Source of the DNA: Pseudomonadota bacterium
GTDB taxonomy: Bacteria > Pseudomonadota > Gammaproteobacteria > Steroidobacterales > Woeseiaceae
Direction of reading: 5' to 3'
Assembly (NCBI GenBank): GCA_027621915.1
Contig: JAQCAD010000031.1
Coordinates: 1 to 39,093, forward strand
DNA length: 39,093 nt
Of the stretch, positions 16,130 through 33,739 are shown piece by piece. Within the stretch, counting starts at the first letter, position 1. Each line of letters starts with the position of its first letter. Made by a program: the position numbers and the translations under genes. The notes beneath the pieces are model-generated. The model did not search any database and had not been told where the DNA came from. It was given only the letters and a program-made list of their open reading frames with translations.

Positions 16130-17581
16130 GTGAAAAGACGCCCAGGATTTCAGTTCATTTTGCAGTGTTTGCCGATTCTTTGGCTTTGTTCATCTGCATC
16201 TGCCGAAACGGTCACACATCACTACACGATCACTATCGACTACACACTCAGCAGGTTGTCGGTTGAAGCACGGTTCAACCATCCGGTGAAAAGTGTTACC
16301 GCGCGGTCCCGGGATGCGGGCAAGTTTTTGCTGGACGTCCGGGAGTGTGGTGACGATACCAACATCCGCATGCGAAACCGGCGCATGATGCTCCCGGACA
16401 ACGGCATTCAGTGTCTGAACTACACCGTCGATCTGGAAAAGGCAGCGAAAGAATATCGCCACGCGACGCTACTCGCGAAAAGTAACATTATTGTGTCGCC
16501 TTCCAACTGGCTATGGCGCCCCGAGCTTCACGGCGATACGAACATCCAGGTAGTTTTTCAGGTTCCGGAGGGCGTGCAGATCTCGGTACCGTGGCAACAA
16601 CTGGATGATTCCGGCATGAAATTCCTGCTGGGCGAGTCGCCCGAGAACGCAAGTTCGCCCGCGGTGTTCGGTCGATTCGACTACCGCTTGATCGAGGTGC
16701 CTGGCGCAGTGCTGCGAGTCAGCCTGATCGAGGGCCAGACCAAAATGGACAATGAGGCGATCGCGAGATGGCTCCAGGCAGCGGCGACCGATGTCAGCCT
16801 CGCTTACGGACGATTTCCAAGCCCATCGCCACAAGTAATCGTTGTTCCGGTTGCGGGCAGCCGTAGTGCAGTGCCGTTCGGTCAGGTCATCCGTGACGGA
16901 GGAGAAACTGTTGAACTGACGATCGATCCCAGGGAATCCCTGCTAGAATTTTTATCCGACTGGAAAGCGACTCATGAATTCAGTCACCTGATGCTGCCGT
17001 ACATCACGCGCGACCATCGCTGGATATCGGAAGGATTCGCACAGTATTACCAGAATGTACTACTGACAAGATCCGGTGCTTACGATCAGGAATATGCCTG
17101 GCAAAAAATTTACGCTGGTCTGGAGCGCGGCAGGTTATCCCAACCGGAGCTTTCACCGAACGAAGCGGCGATGAACGATGTCCGCGGCGGCGGAATGAAG
17201 GTTTACTGGGCTGGCGCGGCGCTTGCTTTAATGGCCGACGTCAAACTGCGCGAGCGATCTGGTGGCGAAGAAGGACTGGACGACGTGCTTGGCAGATTTC
17301 AGGATTGTTGCCTGCCGTCTCCGGAAGTCTGGACCGGCCCCGAACTCTTCGCAAAATTTGATACGCTGATTGCCGAACCGCTGTTCACGCCGCTATACAT
17401 GCGCTACGCGGAAACAGCGGGTTTTCCGGACACCAGCGACGTGATGGCTCGGCTGGGCGTATCCGTTGAGGACGGAGAAATTCGCCTGAAGCGAAATGCC
17501 GAATTGAAGGAGATTCGGGATTCGATCACCGAAACCGACAGTGCCGCCGCAAGGTGGCGAGACAAGCTCGCTGCAAACTGA
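16130..17581 (+). CDS. secreted gluzincin-like metallopeptidase (M1/M61-like)
   Basis: About 483 residues from a GTG at 16130, which gives a clean signal peptide (VKRRPGFQFILQCLPILWLC, then SSASAE). The frame is open to a GTG at 16034, but that adds 32 residues before the signal. The zinc site is HEFSH (His282, Glu283, His286) followed by WISEGFAQYY with Glu301. Only 14 residues separate the second His from that Glu, against 18 in classical M1 enzymes. The N-terminal half is beta-rich like M61 glycyl aminopeptidases. It is probably periplasmic; the substrate is unknown. fdhD follows 56 bases downstream. Confidence 0.8.
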   Translation: MKRRPGFQFILQCLPILWLCSSASAETVTHHYTITIDYTLSRLSVEARFNHPVKSVTARSRDAGKFLLDVRECGDDTNIRMRNRRMMLPDNGIQCLNYTVDLEKAAKEYRHATLLAKSNIIVSPSNWLWRPELHGDTNIQVVFQVPEGVQISVPWQQLDDSGMKFLLGESPENASSPAVFGRFDYRLIEVPGAVLRVSLIEGQTKMDNEAIARWLQAAATDVSLAYGRFPSPSPQVIVVPVAGSRSAVPFGQVIRDGGETVELTIDPRESLLEFLSDWKATHEFSHLMLPYITRDHRWISEGFAQYYQNVLLTRSGAYDQEYAWQKIYAGLERGRLSQPELSPNEAAMNDVRGGGMKVYWAGAALALMADVKLRERSGGEEGLDDVLGRFQDCCLPSPEVWTGPELFAKFDTLIAEPLFTPLYMRYAETAGFPDTSDVMARLGVSVEDGEIRLKRNAELKEIRDSITETDSAAARWRDKLAAN

Positions 17582-17637
17582 GCGATTCCCGACGCCGGCA
17601 CGATATACTGGCCGACCGCTTCAGCGACGGTTCCGTA

Positions 17638-18480
17638 ATGACCGGTAGCAGCCAGACCATTGAAATCGCCAGATTTGACGGATCCCGCATTACAGGCAGG
17701 ACCGACAACGTGGCCGTAGAGGAACCGCTGGAGATCCAGCTGAGTTCGCCCCATGCCGATGGGGCTGCCGCAAAGTCCGTTTCCATAACGATGCGAACGC
17801 CGGGCGATGATCATGAACTTGCCCTTGGGTTTCTGCTTACCGAGGGGATCATCGAGTCGGCCGATCAGGTTGTTTCTGTCCGGCACTGCGGCGAAAGAGA
17901 TCCTGACTCCGGACTAAGGAACATTGTCAGAGTTGAACTTGATCCCGGAGTTGACCTGCAGCTCGATCGACTGGCAAGACACTTCTATACGACGTCAAGT
18001 TGCGGCGTTTGCGGAAAAGCGTCACTGGACGCGCTTCGCGTGACCGGTCAAGACTCGCTCAAAAATTGCCGGACCGTCTTTTCTTCACAGATGCTGCTCG
18101 ACATGCCCCGCGCTGCACGCGACAGGCAGCCGTTGTTCAGCAAGACAGGCGGCCTGCACGCGGCAGCGATATTTGGTTCGGATGGTGAGATCGTAATCGT
18201 TAAGGAAGATGTAGGGCGTCATAATGCGACCGACAAGGCTATTGGATCGCTCTTCGCGGCCGGGCGCTTGCCGGGGCACGATCTTGCATTGCTGGTATCG
18301 GGTCGTGCGAGTTTTGAATTGATGCAGAAGGCGCTGGTCGCAGGGATACCATTGCTGGCGGCGGTTGGAGCACCGTCCAGCCTCGCGGTGAATACAGCCA
18401 GAGAATTCGACATGACGCTGATCGGCTTCCTGCGCGACGGCACATTCAATATTTATGCTGGGCCCGAACGGATAAGTTAG
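17638..18480 (+). CDS. fdhD: FdhD, sulfurtransferase for formate dehydrogenase
   Basis: 280 residues. FdhD moves sulfur from a cysteine desulfurase to the molybdenum cofactor, making formate dehydrogenase active. Key cysteines are in SCGVCGK (Cys122 and Cys125). The cofactor-binding region KTGGLHAAAIF and EDVGRHNATDKAIG are conserved. The ATG at 17638 matches the family start; an upstream in-frame extension overlaps the peptidase gene. It leads the fdhD-fdsG-fdsB-fdsA run, with only 4 bases to fdsG. In Ralstonia and Rhodobacter fds operons the equivalent gene (fdsC) lies after fdsA. Confidence 0.95.
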   Translation: MTGSSQTIEIARFDGSRITGRTDNVAVEEPLEIQLSSPHADGAAAKSVSITMRTPGDDHELALGFLLTEGIIESADQVVSVRHCGERDPDSGLRNIVRVELDPGVDLQLDRLARHFYTTSSCGVCGKASLDALRVTGQDSLKNCRTVFSSQMLLDMPRAARDRQPLFSKTGGLHAAAIFGSDGEIVIVKEDVGRHNATDKAIGSLFAAGRLPGHDLALLVSGRASFELMQKALVAGIPLLAAVGAPSSLAVNTAREFDMTLIGFLRDGTFNIYAGPERIS

Positions 18481-18484
18481 GAAA

Positions 18485-18958
18485 ATGGCAACGAAATACG
18501 ACAAAACGATCGCATCGGAGATCATCAATCAATTCGGCGCAAAACCAGAAATGCTGGTGCAGGTGCTGCATGCGTTCGTACAGCGATACAGTTTTATCAG
18601 CGAGGAAGCGATTCGCCAGATCGCGAACGAATTGAATCTTTCTAACGCTGAAGTTCACGGTGTCGTCAGCTTCTACCACGACTTCCGTACGATCGCCCCG
18701 GGTCAGCATGTCGTCAAAATCTGCCAGGCCGAATCCTGCCAGGCGATGGGTAGCCGCCAGCTCACAGCGCATGCAGAACGCACACTGGGCATATCCCTGC
18801 ACGGCACTACAGTTGACGGCCAGGTAACACTCGAACCGGTATATTGTCTCGGCAATTGCGCATGCTCGCCCGCCGTCATGATCGACGAAACGGTGTACGG
18901 TCGAGTCAGCCCGGACAAGCTCGATGCCCTGATCGAAGATTGCGGAGGTAGCCGATGA
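18485..18958 (+). CDS. fdsG: formate dehydrogenase gamma subunit (NuoE-like)
   Basis: 157 residues, a thioredoxin-like [2Fe-2S] protein. Cluster ligands are Cys80 and Cys85 (KICQAESCQAMG) and Cys121 and Cys125 (YCLGNCACSP). It is homologous to NuoE and works with FdsB in passing electrons from formate to NAD+. The helical N-terminal domain (HGVVSFYHDFRTIAPGQH) is typical of the family. It overlaps fdsB by 4 bases (ATGA). Confidence 0.94.
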   Translation: MATKYDKTIASEIINQFGAKPEMLVQVLHAFVQRYSFISEEAIRQIANELNLSNAEVHGVVSFYHDFRTIAPGQHVVKICQAESCQAMGSRQLTAHAERTLGISLHGTTVDGQVTLEPVYCLGNCACSPAVMIDETVYGRVSPDKLDALIEDCGGSR

Positions 18959-20478
18959 GTCAATCCGTTACCGTTTACGTCCCGCGCGAGACCGCAGCTG
19001 TTTCGATGGGCGCACAAGGCGTCGCAGAAAAAATTTCGGCACTTGGTGACGTCAGAATTGTTCGCAACGGCTCGTGGGGCATGAGCTGGCTTGAGCCGTT
19101 GATTGAAATCGATGTCAACGGGCAACGAATCGGCTATGGCCCGGTCACGGCGGACGACGTCGATAGTCTTTTTGCCGCCGGTTTTCTGCAGGGTGGGGAT
19201 CACGCATTAAAGCTCGGACCTGTTGCGGACGTTCCCTATCTGAAGAACCAGGAACGCTGGACATTCCGGCGCTGCGGTCTCATCGATCCACTGTCTGTCG
19301 ACGACTATCGTGCAAATGGAGGATTCAACGGCCTGGAAACTGCGCTCAACAAAGGACCGGAGTTTGTACTTGATCAGATCAAGGCATCCGGCCTTCGCGG
19401 TCGCGGTGGCGCCGGCTTCCCTACCGGCATCAAATGGCAAACGGTCGCAGATGCTGCCGGCGAACAAAAATATATTACGTGCAACGCTGACGAAGGTGAC
19501 AGCGGAACATTTTCTGACCGAATTCTAATGGAGAGCGATCCATTTACGCTGATTGAAGGAATAATCATCGCTGGCTTCGCTGTCGGTGCGAGTAAAGGGT
19601 ACGTTTACTTACGATCGGAGTACCCGCTGGCGAGGCGCGTGTTCGCCGAAGCGTTAAGCATTGCAAAGAATTGCGGCTGGCTCGGAAACAGAATCCAGGG
19701 CAGCGGTTTCGATTTCGACATTGATTTGCATCTTGGCGCAGGCTCCTACGTATGCGGTGAAGAAACCGCGATGCTTGAAAGTCTCGAGGGTAAAGCCGGG
19801 CTCATTCGATATAAACCTCCGCTGCCGGCAATCGAAGGCCTGTTCGGCAAACCGACTGTCGTTAACAACGTCGTAACGCTGGGGTCGGTGCCTGACATCA
19901 TCGCGTTGGGCGCAGAAGCCTACGCAAGTTTTGGCGTCGGTCGCTCGAAGGGAACGCTCGCTTTCCAGCTCGCCGGCAATATCAAACAGGGCGGTCTCGT
20001 GGAGAAGGCGTTCGGGCTGACATTGCGAGAACTCATTACGGACTTCGGCGGCGGCACGGCCAGTGGACGAAAGATTCGTGCCGTACAGATCGGCGGACCC
20101 CTAGGCGCCTACTTTGCCGATGAGCACCTGGACACACCGCTCGATTACGAAGCGTTCGCCAAAGTCGGCGGTATGATTGGCCATGGCGGCATCGTGGTTT
20201 TCGACGACACCGTGGATATGGCCGAACAGGCCCGTTTTGCCATGGAGTTTTGTGCGATCGAATCCTGCGGGAAATGTACGCCCTGTCGCATCGGTTCGGT
20301 CCGTGGTGTCGAGGTCATCGACCGCATCCTCGCGAACGAAGATCGGGAAGAAAACCTTAATTTACTCAGCGAGTTATGTGACACGATGGTCGACGGTTCC
20401 TTATGTGCAATGGGCGGAATGACACCGTTTCCGGTCAGGAGTGCGGTAAAGTACTTCCCGGAGGACTTCAAGCGATGA
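18955..20478 (+). CDS. fdsB: formate dehydrogenase beta subunit (NuoF-like, FMN and NADH site)
   Basis: 507 residues. An N-terminal NuoE-type thioredoxin-like part (1-90) leads into a NuoF domain. The NADH/FMN motif is RGRGGAGFPTGIKW (148-161), followed by NADEGDSGTFSDR (178-189) and GAGSYVCGEETAMLESLEG. The [4Fe-4S] ligands are Cys438, Cys441, Cys444 (SCGKCTPCRIG) and Cys484. It reduces NAD+ with electrons delivered by FdsA. A GGAGG site precedes the ATG by six bases. It overlaps fdsG and fdsA by 4 bases each. Confidence 0.95.
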   Translation: MSQSVTVYVPRETAAVSMGAQGVAEKISALGDVRIVRNGSWGMSWLEPLIEIDVNGQRIGYGPVTADDVDSLFAAGFLQGGDHALKLGPVADVPYLKNQERWTFRRCGLIDPLSVDDYRANGGFNGLETALNKGPEFVLDQIKASGLRGRGGAGFPTGIKWQTVADAAGEQKYITCNADEGDSGTFSDRILMESDPFTLIEGIIIAGFAVGASKGYVYLRSEYPLARRVFAEALSIAKNCGWLGNRIQGSGFDFDIDLHLGAGSYVCGEETAMLESLEGKAGLIRYKPPLPAIEGLFGKPTVVNNVVTLGSVPDIIALGAEAYASFGVGRSKGTLAFQLAGNIKQGGLVEKAFGLTLRELITDFGGGTASGRKIRAVQIGGPLGAYFADEHLDTPLDYEAFAKVGGMIGHGGIVVFDDTVDMAEQARFAMEFCAIESCGKCTPCRIGSVRGVEVIDRILANEDREENLNLLSELCDTMVDGSLCAMGGMTPFPVRSAVKYFPEDFKR

Positions 20479-23309
20479 ATCCAACCCGCGAATCTGATCT
20501 CGGCACCCCTGTCAGCAAGCAAAAAGCGACAGTTCGAATAGAAATTGACGGACTACCGGCTACGGTGCGAGCCGGCAGCACGATCATGCGTGCCGCACGT
20601 GAATCCGGCGTCGATGTACCAAAACTTTGCGCGACCGACAACCTGAAACCCTTTGGCTCCTGCAGGTTATGCCTGGTCGAGATTGAAGGACGAAAAGGCT
20701 ATCCCGCCTCCTGCACGACGCCGGTCGAGGAAGGCATGCAGATTCGCACGCAAACTCCGGCACTCGCGAAACTTCGCCGCAATGTCATGGAGCTCTACAT
20801 TTCCGATCATCCGCTCGATTGCCTGACCTGTTCAGCCAACGGCGATTGCGAATTACAGGACATGGCCGGTGCAGTTGGCCTCAGAGATGTCCGCTACGGA
20901 TTCGATGGCGACAATCATCTCGATGCGAAGATCGATAGCAGCAATCCCTACTTCTCGTTTGATCCGAGCAAGTGCATCGTATGTTCACGTTGTGTACGCG
21001 CCTGCGATGAGGTGCAAGGCACCTTTGCGCTGACGATCGAAGGACGTGGTTTTCAATCGAAAGTATCAGCCAGTATTGGCCAAAGCTTCATGGATTCGGA
21101 GTGCGTATCCTGCGGCGCCTGCGTGCAGGCCTGCCCGACCGCAACGCTGATGGAGAAATCCATCATCGATAACGGCCAACCGGACCACAGTGTAGTGACC
21201 ACCTGCGCGTACTGCGGCGTCGGCTGCTCATTCAAAGCAGACATGAAAGGCGACCAGGTCGTGCGCATGACACCTTACAAGGATGGTGGTGCGAACCAGG
21301 GTCATAGTTGTGTCAAGGGCCGCTTCGCGTGGGGTTACGCGTCGCACAAAGAGCGCGTGATGAACCCGATGATTCGCGACTCGGTTGACCAGCCGTGGAC
21401 AGTCGTCGGCTGGGATGAAGCCATTTCGCACACGGCGAAGAGATTCAAGGAAATTCAGAAAAAGTATGGCCGCAAGTCAGTCGGCGGTATTACTTCATCC
21501 CGGTGCACGAACGAGGAAGTTTTCATCGTCCAAAAACTGGTGCGTGCTGCATTTGGCAACAACAACGTCGACACCTGCGCACGCGTTTGCCACTCGCCCA
21601 CCGGATACGGATTGAACAAGACACTGGGAACGTCGGCCGGCACGCAACCATTCGAAAGCGTCATGGATGCCGACGTGATGATTGTAATTGGTGCGAATCC
21701 AACGGACGGTCATCCGGTATTCGCATCGCAGATGAAACGCAGACTTCGCGAAGGTGCGAAATTAATTGTTGTCGATCCACGCAAGATCGATCTTGTTCGT
21801 TCGCCACATATCGAGGCCTCATATCACCTGCCGCTGCTGCCGGGCACGAACGTACCAATAATCAATGCGCTGGCACATGTCGTGGTAAGCGAAGGACTGC
21901 TTGACGAAGAGTACGTAAAGCAACGCTGTGACCTCGAATCCTTCGCTGCATGGAAAACCTGCGTGATGAAACCGGAAAATTCGCCCGAGGCTGTGGCTGA
22001 AATTTCCGGCGTCCCGGCTGATGATATCCGCGGAGCGGCACGGCTGTATGCGAATGCTGACAGGGGTGCCATTTACTATGGCCTCGGCGTGACTGAACAC
22101 AGCCAGGGCTCGACCATGGTGATGGGCATGGCAAACCTCGCAATGGCGACCGGCAACATCGGCTTTTCCGGCACGGGCGTAAATCCGCTCCGTGGTCAAA
22201 ACAACGTGCAGGGCTCCTGTGATATGGGTTCTTTCCCGCACGAACTGCCAGGCTATCGGCCCGTGCAGGATGACGAGATTCGTGGCACGTTCGAAAAAAT
22301 ATGGGGCGTCAAAATTGACGCGGAACCCGGTTACCGAATTCCCAATATGTTTGACGCCGCGATCGCCGGCGATTACAAGGGCATGTACATCCAGGGCGAA
22401 GATATTGCCCAGTCTGATCCCAACACGCAGCATGTCGAAGCGGCACTCAGCAACATGGAATGCGTGGTCGTTCAGGACCTGTTCCTGAACGAAACCGCGA
22501 AGTTTGCACACGTATTTCTGCCTGGCACATCATTCCTTGAGAAAGACGGCACTTTTATCAACGCGGAACGACGAATTAATCGCGTACGGCCCGTGATGAA
22601 ACCCCGCCAGGGCAAAGCGGAATGGCTCATCACGCAGGAACTGGCGCGGGCGCTCGGATACCCGATGAATTACAGCAAAGAATCCGAAATCATGGATGAG
22701 ATTGCGACGCTTACTCCTACCTTCCAGGGTGTATCTTTCAAGTTCCTCGATGAAGTTGGCAGCGTCCAGTGGCCCTGCAATGCCGAAGCACCGATGGGCA
22801 CGCCGATCATGCATATCGACAATTTCGTCCGGGGCAAGGGACTCTTCATTGAAACGGACTACGTGCCAACCGAGGAACGTACGAATCGCAAGTTTCCGCT
22901 CTTGCTGACGACGGGTCGCACGCTCACCCAATACAACGTCGGCGCACAGACGCGGCGCACGGAGAATGTTGTCTGGTACAAGGAAGACCTGCTCGAGATT
23001 CACCCGCACGATGCAGAGACTCGTGGCATCAATCATGGTGACCGCGTGTCACTGACCAGTCGCAAAGGTGATATCACGCTCGAAGCGAAGATTACCGAAC
23101 GCGTGCAGCCGGGCGTCGTTTACACCACCTTCCACGATCCCGAGACGGGTGCGAATGTTGTGACAACGGAGTATTCAGACTGGGCAACCAGTTGTCCCGA
23201 GTACAAAGTGACGGCGGTACAGGTCGCGCCAGCAGTTCATCGCTCGAAGTGGCAGAAAGGGTTTGAGAAGAGAGCGAAGGAACAGGAAAAGCTCCTGGAG
23301 CCCACTTAG
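20475..23309 (+). CDS. fdsA: NAD-dependent formate dehydrogenase alpha subunit (Mo-bis-MGD)
   Basis: 944 residues; oxidises formate to CO2. The N-terminal NuoG-like part has a [2Fe-2S] site (Cys52, 63, 66, 80), a His-ligated cluster (His112, Cys116, 119, 125), two ferredoxin clusters (Cys167-177 and Cys210-220) and the CAYCGVGC cluster (Cys244, 247, 251, 279). The molybdenum ligand is Cys372 in CARVCHSPTG, coded TGC rather than a selenocysteine codon. The C-terminal MopB domain includes LLTTGRTLTQYN. The start ATG at 20475 overlaps the fdsB stop (ATGA); an in-frame ATG at 20403 lies inside fdsB. It overlaps the opposing membrane-protein gene by 4 bases. No fdsD (small delta subunit) follows. 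Confidence 0.96.
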   Translation: MNPTRESDLGTPVSKQKATVRIEIDGLPATVRAGSTIMRAARESGVDVPKLCATDNLKPFGSCRLCLVEIEGRKGYPASCTTPVEEGMQIRTQTPALAKLRRNVMELYISDHPLDCLTCSANGDCELQDMAGAVGLRDVRYGFDGDNHLDAKIDSSNPYFSFDPSKCIVCSRCVRACDEVQGTFALTIEGRGFQSKVSASIGQSFMDSECVSCGACVQACPTATLMEKSIIDNGQPDHSVVTTCAYCGVGCSFKADMKGDQVVRMTPYKDGGANQGHSCVKGRFAWGYASHKERVMNPMIRDSVDQPWTVVGWDEAISHTAKRFKEIQKKYGRKSVGGITSSRCTNEEVFIVQKLVRAAFGNNNVDTCARVCHSPTGYGLNKTLGTSAGTQPFESVMDADVMIVIGANPTDGHPVFASQMKRRLREGAKLIVVDPRKIDLVRSPHIEASYHLPLLPGTNVPIINALAHVVVSEGLLDEEYVKQRCDLESFAAWKTCVMKPENSPEAVAEISGVPADDIRGAARLYANADRGAIYYGLGVTEHSQGSTMVMGMANLAMATGNIGFSGTGVNPLRGQNNVQGSCDMGSFPHELPGYRPVQDDEIRGTFEKIWGVKIDAEPGYRIPNMFDAAIAGDYKGMYIQGEDIAQSDPNTQHVEAALSNMECVVVQDLFLNETAKFAHVFLPGTSFLEKDGTFINAERRINRVRPVMKPRQGKAEWLITQELARALGYPMNYSKESEIMDEIATLTPTFQGVSFKFLDEVGSVQWPCNAEAPMGTPIMHIDNFVRGKGLFIETDYVPTEERTNRKFPLLLTTGRTLTQYNVGAQTRRTENVVWYKEDLLEIHPHDAETRGINHGDRVSLTSRKGDITLEAKITERVQPGVVYTTFHDPETGANVVTTEYSDWATSCPEYKVTAVQVAPAVHRSKWQKGFEKRAKEQEKLLEPT

Positions 23310-23809
23310 CAGGAATCGTCTGGCCCAGTTTTACGGTCTTCGACGAACAGCCAGCGTTCCAGGGGCTCCTTAAGGAACTTCGGAAACAAGACAAACATTG
23401 CGGCCAGAATTCCGGCACCCCATGCGGGGTGAATTTCAATGATGTACACGGGCCACATAAACGCACTGATCGTATTCTGAAACGATTCGCCGATATATTT
23501 AAACAGCAACTCCGATACTTGCGACGAAAAATACTCGCTGGCACTTTTCGCCTCGTAGATGTCCACAAAAAACATGCGGAATTCCAGAAAAACAAAAGTG
23601 ATCAGGAATCCGCATGCATAGAGTCCACCGCCGCGCGCATCCCAGACGGTACGAAGCGATCTCTTGATCAACTTCAGTAACTCAGATGGGAACGACCTGG
23701 GTTCGTTTGCAAGTACCTGGCCAAGCGCTTTCGCTTCCCGACCGCGGTTGGCCATGCGCTTTAGAAAAGGGGCCTTCTTCTTTTTCTTCCGGGGATTGGC
23801 GTCAGTCAT
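23306..23809 (-). CDS. membrane protein of unknown function
   Basis: 167 residues. A very basic N-terminus (NPRKKKKKAPFLKR) precedes two hydrophobic helices, GGLYACGFLITFVFLEFRMFF at about 60-82 and GAGILAAMFVLFPKF at about 129-146, with a third weaker one at about 113-126. No conserved catalytic motif is visible and I do not recognise the family. The amphipathic middle (SASEYFSSQVSELLFKYIGE) may lie on the membrane. It converges on fdsA with a 4-base overlap and has no operon partner downstream. Confidence 0.75.
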   Translation of the reverse strand: MTDANPRKKKKKAPFLKRMANRGREAKALGQVLANEPRSFPSELLKLIKRSLRTVWDARGGGLYACGFLITFVFLEFRMFFVDIYEAKSASEYFSSQVSELLFKYIGESFQNTISAFMWPVYIIEIHPAWGAGILAAMFVLFPKFLKEPLERWLFVEDRKTGPDDSC

Positions 23810-23842
23810 CGGTTTTTATGTCTGACGCGATCGAAAATCTGC

Positions 23843-23873
23843 AGACAAAAGTGCCCGGACACCAATCCGGGCA
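23843..23873 (-). terminator. intrinsic terminator after the SYLF gene
   Basis: Perfect 8-bp stem TGCCCGGA (23852-23859) with TCCGGGCA (23866-23873). On the minus strand a run of four T follows (complement of 23847-23850). It lies 9 bases beyond the SYLF stop codon. Confidence 0.55.
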
Positions 23874-23881
23874 TTCGGCTT

Positions 23882-24433
23882 TTATTCCTGATCTTTCTTG
23901 ATACGCGAAATCTTGGTGCCTTCAAGCGTCAGGTTGTACATCAATCCTTTCGCGCCGAAAATGAAACCAACGACTGGATCCTTTATGTTCCCGCTGTTGA
24001 TTTGCTTTCCTGCGCCAAGATCGATGAGAGCGACAGAACCATCTACGCCAACCTGCCAGCCGTTGCTATTGCGAAATTTAGCGAGCGACTCTTTCGTCAT
24101 GAATGCGATGACGATCGACTTCGCCTGAGCGCCTAACTGGAATCCGAATGAACCGGAAGTCGTTCGATAATAGGCGGCAGACCGCCCGTTCACACGAAGT
24201 ACCCCCTCGCCTGTTTCTCCGCCAATACCGATACCGACCTTGATCACGCGGGGAAACACCAGGTAACCGACCGCCTGCCCAAGGAACACTTCCGCGCCAT
24301 TCACTTCTTCCTTGAAGGCGGCGATCGTCTCGTTAGCCTCGCTATCGAGCTCAGCTGCGGACGCAGCATAGGTGGTTGTTGCCGGCAGCAATGCAAGCGC
24401 CGAAATCAACGCTGAAATAAGTACTCTTTTCAT
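23882..24433 (-). CDS. SYLF-domain (YSC84/DUF500-like) exported lipid-binding protein
   Basis: 183 residues. A signal peptide (MKRVLISALISALALLPATT, then TYAASA) precedes an SYLF/YSC84 fold: AVGYLVFPRVIKVGIGIGGETGEGVLRVNG, SFGFQLGAQAKSIVIAFMT and GVDGSVALIDLGAGK. The domain binds phosphoinositides in eukaryotes. Bacterial versions are periplasmic and poorly understood. The second ATG at 24433 is preferred over 24442 because the AAGGGA site sits nine bases upstream of it, while it nearly touches the first ATG. It is monocistronic, with a terminator after it. The interval 24434-24610 shows no other gene. Confidence 0.85.
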   Translation of the reverse strand: MKRVLISALISALALLPATTTYAASAAELDSEANETIAAFKEEVNGAEVFLGQAVGYLVFPRVIKVGIGIGGETGEGVLRVNGRSAAYYRTTSGSFGFQLGAQAKSIVIAFMTKESLAKFRNSNGWQVGVDGSVALIDLGAGKQINSGNIKDPVVGFIFGAKGLMYNLTLEGTKISRIKKDQE

Positions 24434-24610
24434 GACCTTCATTCCCTTATTGAGTGAATGGCTCGTTATGTAAGTAATGATAGCGCATACGCGAACCCGG
24501 GTAACAGACGTCGCATAATACGGACAGTAGCCTGAAAGGACGCTGAACGTAACGCTACGGAAGTGAATTCATCTGGCTGGCCGAAACCCAGCCCCGCCAA
24601 CCAGTCGGCG

Positions 24611-24961
24611 TTAATTGCTCGCAGCAGACTGACCAGGCATTAATGATGGTGGAATCGGCGCCCTGCGCCGATGGGGTTGTGGCGGGTAATTCGCAGCAAG
24701 GTAATCGAGAATGCCCGTTTCCGTAACCGCATCAAATTGCCACAGGTTCTGCGTTGCCTGCATCCAGCGAATCAGGTCGAGCCATGTTTGCCGATCTGCG
24801 CGTTGCGCGGCAACCAACGCATGGGAATGACAGCCTCCGCAATGAATTCTGACGAGTTCCCAGCCGTCGCCAATAATCAGACCGGTTTTTTCATCGACGT
24901 TTTGTGCAATCGAGGCAGTACAAGCCGTCAGGAAAAAAATACTAATTAAAAGACGCCGCAT
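24611..24961 (-). CDS. small cytochrome c (SorB-like partner of sulfite dehydrogenase)
   Basis: 116 residues. The N-terminus has a hydrophobic segment ending in LTAC, a good lipobox, so it may be membrane-tethered; cleavage as an ordinary secreted protein is also possible. One haem c site is visible, HCGGCHSH (CxxCH). A WMQ methionine about 22 residues further on could be the sixth ligand, as in SorB. Length and neighbour support an electron acceptor for the sulfite-oxidase-family enzyme just upstream. ATG at 24961 or GTG at 24964 lies directly after the sorA-like stop, so translation is coupled. Confidence 0.85.
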   Translation of the reverse strand: MRRLLISIFFLTACTASIAQNVDEKTGLIIGDGWELVRIHCGGCHSHALVAAQRADRQTWLDLIRWMQATQNLWQFDAVTETGILDYLAANYPPQPHRRRAPIPPSLMPGQSAASN

Positions 24962-24964
24962 CAC

Positions 24965-26281
24965 TCAGGTCGTTACGCTGACGGCGATACGATGACAGGC
25001 ATTGTTCAGATAGCCACGTGGATTCCAGCCAGGCAGAACAACTGGCTGCGAGGCGCCTCGCTCATCGACGGCGCGCGCCCAAACTTCATAGTACCCGGGT
25101 TCCGGAAATTCCACCGAGGCTGACCAGTGTTGCCACGCCAGCCGATTAACCGGTTTTTTCAGTCTCGCTTTCTGCCAGGACGAACCAAAATCGATTGATG
25201 TGAAAACATGATCGACGCGAAGATCTCCTGCCCATGCATGTCCGCGAATCTCAAGTGAATCGCCAACAGACTGTGTGAGACCTGATTTTGGAAAGGTAAT
25301 GACTGATCTGACCGGCATCGATTCGATAATGCACATATCCTCGTCGGCGACATTACTGCCAGGCTCCACAGGTTTGCAGGGCATGCGATAGGATTGTCCC
25401 AGCATCTTCTCGCCGTCATGTACACGATCCCTGATGAGGATTTTTTTCAGCCATTTTCCGCTGACCGATGCAGGCCAGCCGGCGCACACCATGCGCAATG
25501 GGTAGCCGTGCTGCAGCGGCAGTGGCTCCCCATTCATTGCCCAGACAATCATCGACTCATCTTCAAGTGCTTTCCACAATGGCACACCGCGTGAGATCGG
25601 CAGTTTTTTCGGGTCACCGGATAAGTGACTGTCCGCGCCCTCGTACGCGACATAGACGGCATCATCTTTCACGCCACAATGTTCAAGCACATCTTTAAGA
25701 CGCACACCCGTCCACTCAGGACAACCGATCGCTCCGGTCGTCCACTGGTTACCCGAAGTCGGGGGATAGAATTCAGACCGCCCATTGCCGGCACATTCGA
25801 TCTGCAATTGAAGAGTGTGTTGTTTGAATTCTTTTCTGAGCGAGGCAATCGTTAACGCCTTCGGTTCAACCACCGACTCACCACCAATCTCAATCGTCCA
25901 GTTGTCGACATCGATATCGGCGAGCGTCGGCGGAATTCCGTTGTTGCGAACAAACAGGCGCGATGCCGGCGTGATTTTGTCATCGAGAAGATGAGCCGGC
26001 GTCTCTGCATTGATCGGCCGATCGTTCAAAAGCACGAGGCCGTCTTTCCCCGGCAGCCGAAAGGGTTCGTCACTTTGCGCCAATGCGGCTGGGATCAACC
26101 CGCCTGGCAGGTACTTCGCGAACGGGATGCTTGCTCCAATCGCGGCGACCATCGCAGCCAGTCCGCTGCCCCGCAAGAATCCACGCCTCGAGACGGGGTC
26201 AGTTCGCCTTCCCCAAACCAGATCGTCGGCCCGCGACGCGTCTTTCGCGTACAACTCATGTAACCCGACCTGTTTTTTCAT
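24965..26281 (-). CDS. sulfite-oxidase-family molybdoenzyme (SorA/SoxC-like), Tat-exported
   Basis: 438 residues. A twin-arginine signal (SRRGFLRGSGLAAMVA, Arg32-Arg33) ends near ALAQSDEP. The molybdenum-pterin domain carries the thiolate ligand Cys163 in LQIECAGNGRSEF, and GAIGCPEWTGVRLKDVL and LQHGYPLRMVCAGWP follow. A C-terminal dimerisation domain begins near SVITFPKSG. Relatives oxidise sulfite to sulfate in the periplasm (SorA) or act with SoxD on sulfane sulfur (SoxC). The small cytochrome next door favours a sulfite dehydrogenase. Its ATG overlaps the hutG stop by 4 bases (ATGA), so it is part of the hut operon by structure. Confidence 0.9.
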   Translation of the reverse strand: MKKQVGLHELYAKDASRADDLVWGRRTDPVSRRGFLRGSGLAAMVAAIGASIPFAKYLPGGLIPAALAQSDEPFRLPGKDGLVLLNDRPINAETPAHLLDDKITPASRLFVRNNGIPPTLADIDVDNWTIEIGGESVVEPKALTIASLRKEFKQHTLQLQIECAGNGRSEFYPPTSGNQWTTGAIGCPEWTGVRLKDVLEHCGVKDDAVYVAYEGADSHLSGDPKKLPISRGVPLWKALEDESMIVWAMNGEPLPLQHGYPLRMVCAGWPASVSGKWLKKILIRDRVHDGEKMLGQSYRMPCKPVEPGSNVADEDMCIIESMPVRSVITFPKSGLTQSVGDSLEIRGHAWAGDLRVDHVFTSIDFGSSWQKARLKKPVNRLAWQHWSASVEFPEPGYYEVWARAVDERGASQPVVLPGWNPRGYLNNACHRIAVSVTT

Positions 26282-27072
26282 CCGGAGCCCTTCGCCGACT
26301 GAATGTAAGCAGTCAGCATTTTTTCAATTGTACCGCCGACGTTGACCGCAGCTTTGGCATCATAACTCAGATTATTTTCGTCCATGTAGCAACGCTGTGA
26401 GAGTTCGAGCTGGATCGCGTGGATGTTTTTTTTCGGGGCACCGTAGTGCCGTGTGGTGTACCCACCCTTGAATCGACCGTTCAGCACCGACGTGTAGTCC
26501 GATGTGTTCGCTACATTCATAACTGACGACTCACAGGACGCCCCGCAACTGACCCCACCGAAAGTGCCAATATTGAGATCGGTCAGAACACCGGGAAACA
26601 ACATCGGCACTTCGGAAGCGATCGAGTGCGCGTCCCAAAGGAGTGCGAAACCATATTCGTCGCGTAATGCAGATAGTGTTGACGCAATCCTGTCGTGGTA
26701 GGGGCGCCAGAACCGATCGACCCGGTCCTGTTGCTCTGTTGTCGAGATCGTTTCGCCGTCCAGGTAAATGGGCCGCCCTGCGAACGTCCGTTGCGGGCAA
26801 AGCCCGGTTGACACCTGCCCTTCATATAACGAAGCATCATCCGCCGGCCGGTTGAGATCGACGACGTAGCGCGAGTAATTGGCTGCAATGACGTTGGCAT
26901 CAAGTTCGCCAACGAATGCGTACAACTCGCGCACATACCAGTCCGTATCGGGTAAAGCCCTGCCATCGTCTGTCATGCGCTCCGCCTGGCCCGGCATCAA
27001 TTCGCGACCGTCGTGCGGGATGCTGATCAAAAGTGGCGAGCTGCCCGTCGTGAACGAGAAGACGTCTGTCAT
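26278..27072 (-). CDS. hutG: N-formylglutamate deformylase
   Basis: 264 residues. The N-formylglutamate amidohydrolase fold is shown by LLISIPHDGRELM, PDTDWYVRELYAF, YSRYVVDLNRP, LLWDAHSI and NIHAIQLELSQRCYMDE. It releases formate and glutamate, the last step of the five-step histidine pathway, and requires HutF, encoded at the start of this operon. The ATG at 27072 overlaps the hutH stop (ATGA); the upstream in-frame ATG lies inside hutH. The stop overlaps the sulfite-dehydrogenase start. The formate it makes is a substrate for the FdsGBA enzyme encoded nearby. Confidence 0.93.
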   Translation of the reverse strand: MTDVFSFTTGSSPLLISIPHDGRELMPGQAERMTDDGRALPDTDWYVRELYAFVGELDANVIAANYSRYVVDLNRPADDASLYEGQVSTGLCPQRTFAGRPIYLDGETISTTEQQDRVDRFWRPYHDRIASTLSALRDEYGFALLWDAHSIASEVPMLFPGVLTDLNIGTFGGVSCGASCESSVMNVANTSDYTSVLNGRFKGGYTTRHYGAPKKNIHAIQLELSQRCYMDENNLSYDAKAAVNVGGTIEKMLTAYIQSAKGSG

Positions 27073-28593
27073 GCAGCGTAGCCTGGCAATATCGTGCTGC
27101 ACTGCTCGCAGAAATAACCAGCATTGACCAACGATGAAACCGCATCGATATCCGGTTTCAGAGAGCGATCCCTGTCAAGTGTTGGCGACAGGTCGCGAAT
27201 CCGCGCGAGTGAGCGCTCCAGTATTGGTGAGCTCTTGCGCGGATGGTGAAAATCGATCCCCTGGGCTGCCGACAGCAGTTCAATCGCAACGATGTTGTTG
27301 GCGTTATCCAGCATCGTATGCAGCCTGTTTGCGGCGAACGTTGCCATGCTGACATGATCTTCCTGATTAGCGCTGGTCGGAATACTGTCGACGCTTGCGG
27401 GGTGTGCCAATGACTTGTTTTCCGAAGTCAGCGCTGCCGCAGTAATTTGCACAATCATGAATCCCGAGTTCAGCCCGCTCTCCCTGACGAGAAATGCGGG
27501 CAGGCCTGAAAGGTGCGGATCCATCATTAACGCGATACGCCGCTCGGAAATTGATCCGATTTCTGCGATGGCCAGTGCAAGATGGTCCGCAGCGAATGCA
27601 ACCGGCTCGGCGTGAAAGTTCCCGCCTGACAGAACAGCATTAGCCTCCGCAAACACCAACGGATTATCAGTAACCGCATTGGCCTCCGTTTCCAGAACAT
27701 CACAGACATGTCGCAGGACATCGAGACAGGCTCCCACCACCTGCGGCTGACACCGTATCGAATAGGGATCCTGCACGCGATCGCAATCGACGTGCGAGGC
27801 CCGAATGTCGCTGCCTTGCAGTAAATTTCGCAACAGGGTGGCAACATCGATCTGCCCCTTGTGTCCACGAACTGCGTGAATTCGATTATCGAATGGCGCG
27901 TCACTGCCCTTGACGGCGTCAGTCGACATTGCGCCAGCAGTTACTGCAGCCGCAAGCAGGTTTTCCGTTCGAAACGCGGCAGCCATGGCAAGCGCGGTCG
28001 ACACCTGCGTGCCATTTAGCAGTGCGAGCCCCTCTTTTGGCGCCAGGTTGATCGGCGAAAGTCCGGCAGCCTGCAACGCATCAGCCGCGGGGATCTCCAC
28101 ACCGTTCACGCGCGCGCTGCCCGCCCCGATCAATACGCCAGCCATGTGCGCCAGTGGCGCGAGATCTCCTGATGCGCCGACCGAGCCTTTCGAAGGAATC
28201 GTTGGATAGATTTCGCGGCTGACAAGCTGGCAGAGCATATCGATCAGTTCAGGACTGACACCGGAATATCCCGCGGCGAGCGCCTTAACCTTCATGACCA
28301 TTACGAGCCGGACGATTTCGTCCGGCAGCAGCGGCCCGACACCCACCGAGTGAGACCGAATCAGGTTCTCCTGCAATAATCCCAATTCATCGTCGCTGAT
28401 TCGTACATTGGCGAGCAGGCCAAATCCGGTATTGACGCCGTAGGTACTCTTGCCACCAGCAAGCACTTTGGTAATCGTCGCCTGCGCCGCGGCAACCGCA
28501 TCACGACACTCGTCACCCAGAGTCAACTGAGTGGGCTGCAGCCAGACGTCGCGAAGCGTTGCGAGCGACAGTGGACTCTTGCCTATCGTCAGA

Positions 28594-28601
<8 letters not shown>
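27069..28601 (-). CDS. hutH: histidine ammonia-lyase
   Basis: 510 residues; removes ammonia from histidine to give urocanate. The MIO prosthetic group forms from Ala143-Ser144-Gly145 in [15 protein letters not shown]. Tyr54 in YGVNTGFG and later [12 protein letters not shown] are conserved active-site segments. The intact ASG argues against an ergothionase. The start ATG at 28601 lies 8 bases inside hutU (ATGAATAG) and matches the family N-terminus; an upstream in-frame ATG would extend well into hutU. Confidence 0.96.
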
Positions 28602-30269
<1,668 letters not shown>

Positions 30270-30270
<1 letters not shown>

Positions 30271-31028
30271 TACATCCCTACTCCACTTGTGGGGCGCTTG
30301 CCGAATACTTTTGTACCCGGTGGTGCATAGTGACCGGACAACTCAAAGCGACTGCCCGGGTGGTACAGGCGCGCGAAGGAGACCGGCCTGCCATGTGCCC
30401 ATGTTCTGCGCGTGACGACGAGGCAGGGCTCCCCATCGGCCATCTCCAGGTTTCGTTTTATTTGCGTGTCTGGCATCGCAGCGCGAACAACATGCTCGGC
30501 TTCCTGCAATGGCGACACTGAACTCAGGTAGGCGCTTGGTGTTATTTCATCGAAGTCCTGTTTGAGAAAATCAGGCGCAAAGTCCGGCAGGACGTAGCGG
30601 TCCTCCAGCTGTATGGGAATGCCGTTCTCGCGATGGACAATTCGCACCCGGTGTAAAGAGTCGCCGGGTTTTACTTTCAAAGCTGCTGATGCCTCGGGAT
30701 CGATCGGGGCGCCAGCGCCGTCAAGCACTGTCGCCGAGTATTCGTGGTCACGAAGCGCGATTTCATCCGCGATGTTGCGTACTTCCAGAACGTGAGAGGC
30801 GGCTTTGAAGTCAGCGACGAAGGTGCCTACGCCGGCAACACGTTCAACGTAACCTTCACTGTCCAGCTCCCTGAGTGCACGGTTTGCCGTCATGCGCGAC
30901 ACACCGGTGGCATCGACCAGTTCGTTCTCGGATGGAACCCGATCCCGCGGTTGAAGCTCGCCGGTCGAAATTCGCCCGATGATCAACTCCTTGAGCTGGC
31001 GATATCGGGGTTTCGCGCCGACGCTCAC
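30270..31028 (-). CDS. hutC: HutC, GntR-family histidine-utilisation repressor
   Basis: 252 residues. An N-terminal winged helix-turn-helix ([19 protein letters not shown], then [20 protein letters not shown]) is followed by a UTRA ligand domain ending in [10 protein letters not shown]. HutC represses hut genes and is released by urocanate. The GTG at 31028 overlaps the hutF stop (GTGA) and has a GAGG site seven bases upstream. The open frame continues to 31124 but that part lies inside hutF. Its likely operator is the TGTATATACA palindrome at 32423-32432, so it would repress its own operon. Confidence 0.93.
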
Positions 31029-32404
31029 CACAGCACCTCGTCGAGCAGGAGCTTTCCGGCTACGTCCGAATACGCACTGCGTGCCGCTTCCTCTCCCTCG
31101 TGCCTGCCGTCCACCACGCGCCACACGCCATTCACCATGACGCGATCAATCGGCAACGTGAATCCGGAAAAAACCAGCGCGTCCAGGTACGAACGCGTCG
31201 TATGACCGGCAAGCATCGGGCTGTCATCATCCAGTACGACCAGGTCTGCATTCGCGCCGGCCTCGAGCTGACCGCCGCCCTGACCGCAGGCAAGCGCTCC
31301 GCCGCTCGCCGCCATCTCGAACAAACTGCGCCCGGTTTGTGGTTGGCCGATCGCTGCAATATTCCGGCTCTGTGAAACCAGGCGTTGCCCGTATTCAAGC
31401 CAGCGCAATTCTTCAAAAGGGTTAATCGAAACGTGACTGTCGGACCCGATCGCAATGCGGCCACCTTGTTCGAGATACGGCTTCAGCGGAAACAATCCGT
31501 CTCCGAGGTTTGCCTCGGTGCTCGGGCAAAGGCCAACGACTGCACCTGACCTGGCGATCAGCGCTATCTCCCGATCGTCAATGTGTGTTGCATGGACCAG
31601 GCACCAGTTTTTATCGACGTCGCAGTTGTCGAACAACCATTCAACCGGCCGCGCGTTAAATTCAGCGAAACACTGATCAACTTCTCTTTTTTGTTCCGCG
31701 ATATGAATATGCATTGGTACGCCGTCATTAGCTGCCACTGCCGCGACCTGTTTCAGGGAATCCACAGTTACGGCCCGAAGACTATGTACGCCGATCCCCG
31801 TATGAAATATTCCGCCCGCCAATCCGGCAGCGATGGCAGACGCGTTTTCATAGTGCGCTATCAGCTGGTCCGAACTCAGCGCAAAGCGCATCTGGTCTTT
31901 GGTAGGTTCAGGCTCGGTAAAGCCTGCCCTTTCATAAAGGACGGGCACATACGTCAGGCGAATTCCGCTTTCGCTGGCGGCCTCGACAATTGCCTCAAAC
32001 ATGGCCACGGATGTGGTGCGTTCTCCGGGTTCGTTATGCAGATAGTGAAACTCCGCGACCGAGGTATAGCCGGTCGAGAGCATTTCCCCATAAGCCTGAC
32101 GTGCGATCGCCCTCATCGACGAGGCATCGATCCGGCCGGCAAGGGCGTACATGCGAGCGCGCCAGGTCCAGAAATTATCTTTGCCCGTGGGACCACGTTG
32201 CTCGGTATGTCCGGCCAGTACCCGCTGAAATGCGTGGCTGTGGACGTTCGCAAGACCCGGAATGACGATGCCGGCAACATAATCGCCACGCTCGGCGAGC
32301 ACGTTTGCCTTCAGCGAGCTGATTTTGCCGTCACTGACAATAATCCGGACGTTTTCTGCCCAGCCCTCCGACGTCAGTGCCTTTCTTGCGAATAGTTGAG
32401 TCAT
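31025..32404 (-). CDS. hutF: formimidoylglutamate deiminase
   Basis: 459 residues of the amidohydrolase superfamily. Metal residues are visible in NVHSHAFQR (His55, His57), MHIHIAEQ, HATHID and SDSH. HutF converts N-formimidoyl-glutamate to N-formylglutamate plus ammonia. With HutG this defines the five-step pathway, in contrast to the direct HutG-type formiminoglutamase route. Segments RVLAGHTEQRGPTGKDNFWTW and STEANLGDGLFPL are characteristic. It is first of the operon hutF-hutC-hutU-hutH-hutG and divergent from hutI. Confidence 0.95.
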   Translation of the reverse strand: MTQLFARKALTSEGWAENVRIIVSDGKISSLKANVLAERGDYVAGIVIPGLANVHSHAFQRVLAGHTEQRGPTGKDNFWTWRARMYALAGRIDASSMRAIARQAYGEMLSTGYTSVAEFHYLHNEPGERTTSVAMFEAIVEAASESGIRLTYVPVLYERAGFTEPEPTKDQMRFALSSDQLIAHYENASAIAAGLAGGIFHTGIGVHSLRAVTVDSLKQVAAVAANDGVPMHIHIAEQKREVDQCFAEFNARPVEWLFDNCDVDKNWCLVHATHIDDREIALIARSGAVVGLCPSTEANLGDGLFPLKPYLEQGGRIAIGSDSHVSINPFEELRWLEYGQRLVSQSRNIAAIGQPQTGRSLFEMAASGGALACGQGGGQLEAGANADLVVLDDDSPMLAGHTTRSYLDALVFSGFTLPIDRVMVNGVWRVVDGRHEGEEAARSAYSDVAGKLLLDEVLW

Positions 32405-32432
32405 TGTCTGCTTTTTCCAGGTTGTATATACA
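32404..32432 (+). promoter_or_regulatory. hutI promoter overlapping a HutC-type operator
   Basis: The perfect palindrome TGTATATACA (32423-32432) lies between divergent hutF and hutI and resembles known HutC sites (TTGTATxTACAA type). A plus-strand promoter, TTGTCT (32404-32409), a 17-base spacer and TATACA (32427-32432), places its -10 inside the palindrome, so repressor binding would block it. The symmetry could also control the hutF transcript. Confidence 0.6.
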
Positions 32433-32480
32433 GGCTAGTACATGCTACGGTTCTTTGCAATTCATGGCGGAGCGACGTGT

Positions 32481-33695
32481 TTGCCGGACTGGGATCTCAT
32501 ACTGACGGAATTGAACGTAGCCACGATGGTTGAGGATTGCGGCCCTTATGGTGTGATCGAAAATGCGGCGGTTGCGATTGCGAATGGCCGGATCTCCTGG
32601 ATCGGGGCGAGGGCCGACCTGCCGGCAGGCAGCGCCACCGAGTCGCGATCGATGGGCGGTCGCTGGCTGACACCGGCGCTGATTGACTGTCATACACACC
32701 TCGTATTTGCCGGCAACCGTTCCGCAGAATTCGAACAACGCCTGGCCGGGGCAAGTTACGAGGAAATCGCGCGTGCCGGTGGCGGCATCATGTCGACAGT
32801 CAATGCGACTCGCGCCGCAAGCGCCGACCTGCTCCTTGAACAGACCGCGGCCCGACTCGACATCCTGCGTGCCGAGGGATGCGCGACGGTGGAGATCAAA
32901 TCCGGCTATGGCCTGAATCTGCAAACCGAGCTTAAGCTTCTGGAGACCATTCGTGCGCTTAAGAACCAGGCAGGCATCTCCATCAGCAGCACTTTCCTGG
33001 GTGCACACGCCATTCCCGTGGAGTTTCGCGGTAAAGCGGACGAGTACATCGATCTTGTTTGTGACGAGATGTTGCCAGCCGTGCACGAGAAACAACTGGC
33101 CGACGCGGTGGACGCGTACTGCGAGTCCATCGCCTTTTCCGTAAAACAGATTGGCCGGGTTTTCGAAACGGCGCGATCGCTGGGGCTGCCAGTGAAGTTA
33201 CATGCGGATCAACTCAGCGACTGCGGCGGCGCGGAACTTGCGGCGGAGTTCGGCGCACTGTCTGCCGATCACCTTGAATACACGTCAGCAAAAGGTGTCG
33301 ATGCCCTCGCAGCCGCCGGTTCGGTGGCAGTGTTATTACCTGGTGCGTTCCTGACGCTCGGCGAAACCGAATGCCCGCCGGTAGCACTGTTGCGCGACAG
33401 GAACGTTCCAATTGCCATCGCTACTGATTGCAACCCGGGAACATCGCCGATTTGCTCATTGCGGACAACGATGGCGCTCGCGACCAGCCTGTTTCGACTT
33501 ACGCCCGCAGAATGCCTTGCCGGTGTCACCAGAAATGCCGCTGTGGCTCTGGGCCTGGAACAAGACAGAGGCACACTCGAAACCGGCAAGCGAGCGGACA
33601 TTGCAATATGGGATATCGGACATCCGCAGGAGTTGTCCTACTGGATCGGCAAGAACGACCTGGCAGAGCTGTTGGTTGCCGGACGAACCGCCTGA
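32481..33695 (+). CDS. hutI: imidazolonepropionase
   Basis: 404 residues from a TTG at 32481. It opens 4-imidazolone-5-propionate to formimidoylglutamate. The amidohydrolase metal motif is DCHTHLVFAG (His71, His73), followed by KSGYGLNLQTELK, FLGAHAIP, KLHADQLSD, SADHLEY and ATDCNPGTSP. TTG 32481 is preferred: GGAG lies eight bases upstream, WDLILTELNVATM is the usual beginning of HutI, and the predicted start point near 32439 would leave an ATG at 32442 almost leaderless. ATG 32442 (417 residues) remains possible. It is transcribed away from the rest of the hut genes. Confidence 0.94.
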   Translation: MPDWDLILTELNVATMVEDCGPYGVIENAAVAIANGRISWIGARADLPAGSATESRSMGGRWLTPALIDCHTHLVFAGNRSAEFEQRLAGASYEEIARAGGGIMSTVNATRAASADLLLEQTAARLDILRAEGCATVEIKSGYGLNLQTELKLLETIRALKNQAGISISSTFLGAHAIPVEFRGKADEYIDLVCDEMLPAVHEKQLADAVDAYCESIAFSVKQIGRVFETARSLGLPVKLHADQLSDCGGAELAAEFGALSADHLEYTSAKGVDALAAAGSVAVLLPGAFLTLGETECPPVALLRDRNVPIAIATDCNPGTSPICSLRTTMALATSLFRLTPAECLAGVTRNAAVALGLEQDRGTLETGKRADIAIWDIGHPQELSYWIGKNDLAELLVAGRTA

Positions 33696-33739
33696 ATTCA
33701 GAAGAACAAAAATAAAATTCACATGAGAACAGGCCCCTG

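Follow-up and report, generated by a model that had tools for sequence, protein, structure and literature searches.

The locus described here lies within a 39,093-nucleotide stretch of Woeseiaceae DNA, the whole of which is called the window below. On the minus strand, genes in the order hutF-hutC-hutU-hutH-hutG are followed by sorA and sorB, and hutI is divergent (Table 1). At their junction, hutG ends and sorA begins within the same four bases, ATGA (TCAT on the plus strand), and the preceding hutH-hutG junction is likewise an ATGA overlap (27069 to 27072). Only 3 nt separate the sorA stop from the sorB ATG, or 0 nt if the GTG just upstream is the start. An initial annotation of this DNA had reported a sulfite dehydrogenase gene overlapping the hutG stop by four bases, with a cytochrome gene directly after it, and both details were confirmed. 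Two of the open reading frames probably extend beyond the true genes: the real start of hutH probably lies inside the frame, near 28601, and that of hutC is probably also internal, since the GntR domain begins only at residue 41. The fds cluster, which converges on the hut block, adjoins it in many relatives as well. The hutF and hutG route of histidine degradation yields formate and glutamate, and because it is the hutG step that frees the formate, a formate dehydrogenase beside the hut genes makes direct metabolic sense. Between fdsA and ysc84 there is also a minus-strand open reading frame of 167 amino acids (23306 to 23809) with no Pfam match; a cluster of neighboring frames in six relatives may be homologous to it.

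Table 1. Features of the hut-sorAB block and its borders (window coordinates)
Feature	Position	Strand	Remarks
fdhD-fdsG-fdsB-fdsA-like NAD-linked formate dehydrogenase cluster	17554..23309	+	convergent
Candidate two-way terminator 3' of ysc84	23850..23875	.	weak terminator-scan call
ysc84-like gene	23882..24442	-	PF04366; downstream border of cassette site in relatives
sorB-like monohaem c-type cytochrome	24611..24961	-	116 aa; CGGCH at residues 41-45
sorA-like molybdenum sulfite oxidase/dehydrogenase	24965..26281	-	438 aa; PF00174, PF03404; Tat motif
ATGA overlap, hutG stop/sorA start	26278..26281	-	plus strand reads TCAT
hutG, N-formylglutamate amidohydrolase	26278..27072	-	TIGR02017, 299 bits vs cut-off 278.75
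hutH, histidine ammonia-lyase (ORF)	27069..28682	-	TIGR01225 above cut-off
hutU, urocanate hydratase	28594..30270	-	TIGR01228 above cut-off
hutC, repressor (ORF)	30270..31124	-	TIGR02018, 277.9 bits vs cut-off 220
hutF, formimidoylglutamate deiminase	31025..32404	-	operon's first gene; TIGR02022 above cut-off
HutC operator TGTATATACA, hutF-hutI intergenic	32423..32432	.	perfect consensus match
hutI, imidazolonepropionase	32442..33695	+	divergent; TIGR01224 above cut-off

The SorA protein scores above the Pfam cut-offs for PF00174 (172.2 bits; cut-off, 24) and PF03404 (64.9 bits; cut-off, 22.7). Its Oxidored_molyb and Mo-co dimerisation domains place it in the sulfite oxidase superfamily, and it matches sulfite oxidases with solved structures at an E value of about 1e-47. 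The Tat motif, RRGFL, occupies residues 32 to 36 (TIGR01409, 19.9 bits against 16.7). The protein gives good matches to three NCBIfam sulfite dehydrogenase models and yet falls under their equivalog cut-offs, those for SorA (NF052245, 236.5 of 600 bits), SorT (203.6 of 570), and SoxC (181.5 of 420), and SorB falls under that for NF052246 (21.1 of 93 bits). The name sulfite dehydrogenase is therefore supported at the level of the superfamily and not by the subfamily models; with that restriction, the identities first proposed for hutG, the dehydrogenase, and the cytochrome were borne out. All six of the SorA residues R112, C163, R168, W180, Y298, and R422 align with chicken sulfite oxidase R138, C185, R190, W204, Y322, and R450, which we take to be the molybdenum-ligand cysteine and the sulfite site. 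The first five of these positions are invariant in all 103 aligned SorA rows. Judged by sequence, SorA appears to be a sulfite oxidase of divergent type whose sulfite-site residues are intact. The dN/dS ratios of SorA (0.047 to 0.090 in nine of ten pairs, the tenth being saturated) point to strong purifying selection. The window genome encodes three more PF00174 proteins, two of them 27 to 29% identical to SorA.

In SorB, the CxxCH motif is invariant in all 21 proteins aligned out of the 77 found. The best profile match was the haem domain of an amine dehydrogenase (1jmx_A; E, 1.7e-5), followed by the Starkeya SorB (2blf_B; E, 9e-4). A structure model with a mean pLDDT of 84 gave 2blf_B as the top fold match (probability, 0.99; E, 0.065), with no match at an E value of 0.001 or lower, and as modeled SorB may resemble the Starkeya cytochrome. 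The pair as a whole shares with the SorAB of Starkeya novella (2blf) the sulfite oxidase fold family, a Tat motif, and an adjacent gene for a small monohaem c-type cytochrome, whose predicted fold may also be similar. It differs in scoring under the curated SorA and SorB cut-offs and in its control, for an ECF sigma factor that responds to sulfite is described as governing the Starkeya genes (PMC6527743, available text) whereas the window pair ends a HutC operon.

To see how widely this arrangement occurs, the initial annotation had proposed a genome survey of hutG-sorA adjacency. Among 107 genomes of Woeseiaceae, with SorA called at an E value of 1e-80 or lower, SorA was found in 81, HutG in 94, and HutU in 93. 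In 36 of the 107, equal to 36 of the 81 with SorA, sorA comes immediately after hutG, and a further linked copy in genome G019 is cut by a contig end. Recurrence on this scale excludes a one-off arrangement, and the adjacency is more than chance would produce. Across the 36 linked genomes, the distance from the hutG stop to the sorA start always lay between -14 and +43 nt; 20 of them, the window included, have overlapping genes, 16 by exactly four bases. We saw no hutG-sorA pair outside the family: when the best 80 of 436 relatives were inspected, the 18 loci with adjacent genes all belonged to it. An order-level check of 196 genomes found SorA in 22 from outside the family, and in the 13 of these that were inspected there was no hut match in the stretch fetched. 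The whole block of MFS, hutI, hut, ysc84, and fds genes is syntenic in the family, so adjacency by itself does not prove a functional tie.

The operon carries both a hutC gene and, at its head, the sequence TGTA-N2-TACA, the two marks of a HutC-regulated operon. This is the HutC consensus operator, from which urocanate releases the repressor (PMC12977541, available text). The element, TGTATATACA, is the sole perfect operator match in the window. Besides the window, perfect operators were present in all 36 testable hutI-hutF regions of relatives, compared with 8 perfect matches in 720 stretches drawn at random from those loci, some of which may overlap the true site. Weak HutC-like matches (26 to 39%) in three loci (L058, L072, and L080) were taken as other GntR regulators. 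In its HutC repressor, TGTA-N2-TACA operator, urocanate inducer, and hutF-hutG route, the operon is like those of Pseudomonas (PMC12977541); the available text of that paper mentions no sulfite gene, and the window operon differs in having sorAB added at its end. Considering the overlap, its recurrence, and the perfect operator together, it is likely that sorAB is cotranscribed with the hut genes and induced by urocanate, and sorAB probably shares the operon's switch.

A different account would make sorAB a passenger captured by chance, with a promoter of its own inside hutG and no response to urocanate. A scan for sigma-70-like consensus sites from 23300 to 33800, a weak one, gave none on the minus strand and one on the plus strand against 5.8 expected, which speaks against such a promoter; so does the distance from hutG to sorA, which never exceeds 43 nt in the 36 linked genomes, with 20 of them overlapping. 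A terminator scan returned 13 sites against 11.3 expected by chance and so was not above chance. What favors a separate promoter is that sorAB behaves as a cassette that may be present or absent at one fixed position. Many hut loci do without it and retain the rest of the block (MFS, hutI, hutF to hutG, ysc84, and fds); in 47 of them, ysc84 comes immediately after hutG. In one genome (G006, locus L182), a decayed sorA start persists between hutG and ysc84, direct evidence of loss in place. Conversely, four genomes (loci L155 to L157 and L132) hold sorAB without adjacent hut genes, and there another promoter must serve. Neither HutG nor HutU was matched in three of the four (G094, G045, and G072), which keep sorAB-ysc84 beside fds; the fourth (G071, L132 and L207) has the same sorAB-ysc84 arrangement beside fds, with a divergent hut cluster of other gene order located elsewhere. 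In the hut-less pair L155 and L156, the SorA dN/dS is still 0.047. On balance, we regard capture with an independent promoter as rather unlikely. Chance capture, which the initial annotation had raised, fits the origin of the arrangement, but long in-frame retention with hutG and strong purifying selection on SorA mark sorAB as a passenger that works and not as debris.

The cassette pattern also rules out an obligate tie of sorAB to histidine use. Since relatives carry either gene set alone, SorAB has the appearance of a passenger, inherited and histidine-controlled, and not of a step in histidine breakdown. This bears on the suggestion, made with the initial annotation, that the operon degrades a sulfur-bearing histidine derivative such as ergothioneine or a thiohistidine, with the sulfur ending as sulfite. 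Adjacency alone counts for that idea, which we consider extremely unlikely. The window genome, 95% complete, has a single gene of the aromatic lyase family PF00221, which is hutH, and a single urocanase-family gene at an E value of 1e-100 or lower. HutU passes the urocanase model and falls below the cut-off of the thiourocanate hydratase model (696.3 bits against 930). Moreover, sorAB is kept where the hut genes are gone, and elsewhere a copy in a sulfur gene island substitutes for it. Thiohistidine breakdown was rejected on these grounds, and a chemical link of sorAB to histidine is not supported. The coupling to the hut operon first proposed therefore holds as an arrangement, seen in 36 of 107 genomes with an operator before hutF, and is not supported as sulfur chemistry.

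The island copies form a second type of SorAB within the family. In 39 genomes, SorAB lies in sulfur islands beside YeiH (PF03601), DsrE-like (PF13686), or rhodanese genes, and 9 of these 39 loci have aprA or sat nearby within the flanks fetched. Relatives of this type occur in Halomonas, Thiotrichaceae, and Alteromonadaceae. It is the same enzyme pair, with SorA 62 to 71% identical to the window protein in most rows; it differs in forming a separate clade, in its YeiH, DsrE-like, rhodanese, and apr-sat neighbors, in having mostly K422, and in lacking a HutC-type site within 400 bp upstream at all 40 loci checked. The SorA tree left out rows shorter than 380 amino acids or with stops (two linked, G023 and G081; two island, G034 and G036; and the cut G019 copy) and included 26 outside rows hand-picked from named loci. 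In this tree, the island rows make up one clade (37 rows, 99%), and a branch with 99% support has 63 rows (island and outside) on one side and 40 (hut-type and related) on the other. Position 422 is R in 32 of 34 hut-linked rows and in all four hut-less rows of the same site, and K in 35 of 37 island rows and 21 of 26 outside rows. This difference, together with the scores under all three curated sulfite dehydrogenase cut-offs, could be read to mean that the substrate of the hut-linked SorA is something other than sulfite. We find that very improbable, given that the window SorA matches chicken sulfite oxidase at six positions presumed to form the sulfite site and that the sister island clade is located among sulfur genes.

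No genome among the 107 had two SorA matches at the cut-off used. The hut type (41 genomes) and the island type (39 genomes) were never seen together, against 14.9 co-occurrences expected if they were independent (Fisher, 1e-11, a value that ignores phylogeny, with many of the genomes incomplete). In a quick HutU tree, from which rows shorter than 350 amino acids were omitted, hut-linked, island, and absent states are interleaved, with 12 to 13 changes, of which 2 to 4 are forced by well-supported branches; the nearest row to the window, G028, is island type. Apparently one sulfite dehydrogenase has repeatedly been lost or has given way to another, a xenologue. dsrA was present in 9 of the 107 genomes (none of 41 hut type, 5 of 39 island type, and 4 of 27 others) and soxY in 24 (5 of 41, 10 of 39, and 9 of 27, respectively), so the hut-linked form tends to lack genes of sulfur lithotrophy.

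The best reading, in our view, is that an old operon fusion puts periplasmic sulfite oxidation under a histidine/urocanate switch in protein-feeding sediment bacteria. sorAB would have entered the hut operon a single time, at an early stage of the family, and been passed down at that place, with lineages often losing it or holding a xenologous SorAB in a sulfur gene island. Urocanate would free HutC, transcription from the hutF promoter would read through to sorB, and the level of sorAB should rise with urocanate. The Tat-exported molybdenum protein SorA and the periplasmic cytochrome c SorB would then oxidize sulfite to sulfate in the periplasm and pass the electrons to the cytochrome c pool. 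The substrate would not be a histidine product; its disposal may be useful while the cell is eating protein and other sulfur-bearing detritus. We hold with some confidence that sorAB in this way closes a hut operon under HutC control and serves general sulfite disposal, with histidine as a proxy signal. Gene order and the operator point to the read-through half of this reading, and knowledge of the enzyme family and the cassette pattern to the sulfite half. Woeseiales have been described as proteolytic (PMC7082342, whose main text contains neither of the words sulfite and histidine), and sulfur-oxidizing Woeseiales have also been described (available text of PMC7451513 and PMC12345210). As sources of sulfite, cysteine dioxygenase, dsrA, and soxY were sought in the window genome, and none was matched. 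SorA is somewhat commoner with HutG (75 of 94 genomes) than without it (7 of 13; Fisher, p = 0.07, the cut G019 copy being counted as present), which counts against this reading and may point to a genuine link.

One such link would be protection. In dark, sulfidic sediment, sulfite might harm the hut enzymes, and the operon would make a sulfite scavenger when urocanate appears; light could not reactivate urocanase there, and SorAB made at the same time would keep sulfite low. Sulfite reportedly inactivates the urocanase of Pseudomonas putida through addition to the NAD+ that the enzyme binds tightly. Histidine ammonia-lyase, too, may be attacked, at its electrophilic group. This enzymology, the coexpression that the operon suggests, and the slight excess of SorA in HutG-positive genomes would all agree with protection, and photoactivation of the P. 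putida urocanase is listed among the references of PMC3654973. However, 19 of the 94 HutG-positive genomes are without a SorA of this kind, and SorAB would be Tat exported whereas urocanase is cytoplasmic. A literature search on urocanase or urocanate hydratase with sulfite turned up no paper that looked relevant. We therefore think protection quite improbable and keep to general sulfite disposal under the histidine signal as the preferred account.

The enzyme pair at the locus is a known one; its regulatory position is unusual and has long been retained. We found no printed link between sulfite dehydrogenase and histidine utilization, or between hutG and sulfite, in a search confined largely to openly accessible papers without their supplements. 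Induction of bacterial sulfite dehydrogenases by sulfite, through ECF sigma factors, has been reported (PMC6527743, available text). If the pair is HutC controlled, the logic would be different, an organic-nitrogen signal turning on sulfur oxidation. The family is common in sea-floor sediment (PMC7082342, available text), and the proposed arrangement, if true, would bear on how bacteria there join protein breakdown to sulfite removal. A recent sediment study describes SorAB as rare or absent (PMC12345210, available text); members that score under curated cut-offs, as those here do, could be overlooked in surveys. The family offers a natural experiment in which the three states (hut-linked, island, and absent) are interleaved among close relatives. 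The alternation of R and K at SorA residue 422 (about 25016 to 25018 in the window) may mark a kinetic difference between the two types.
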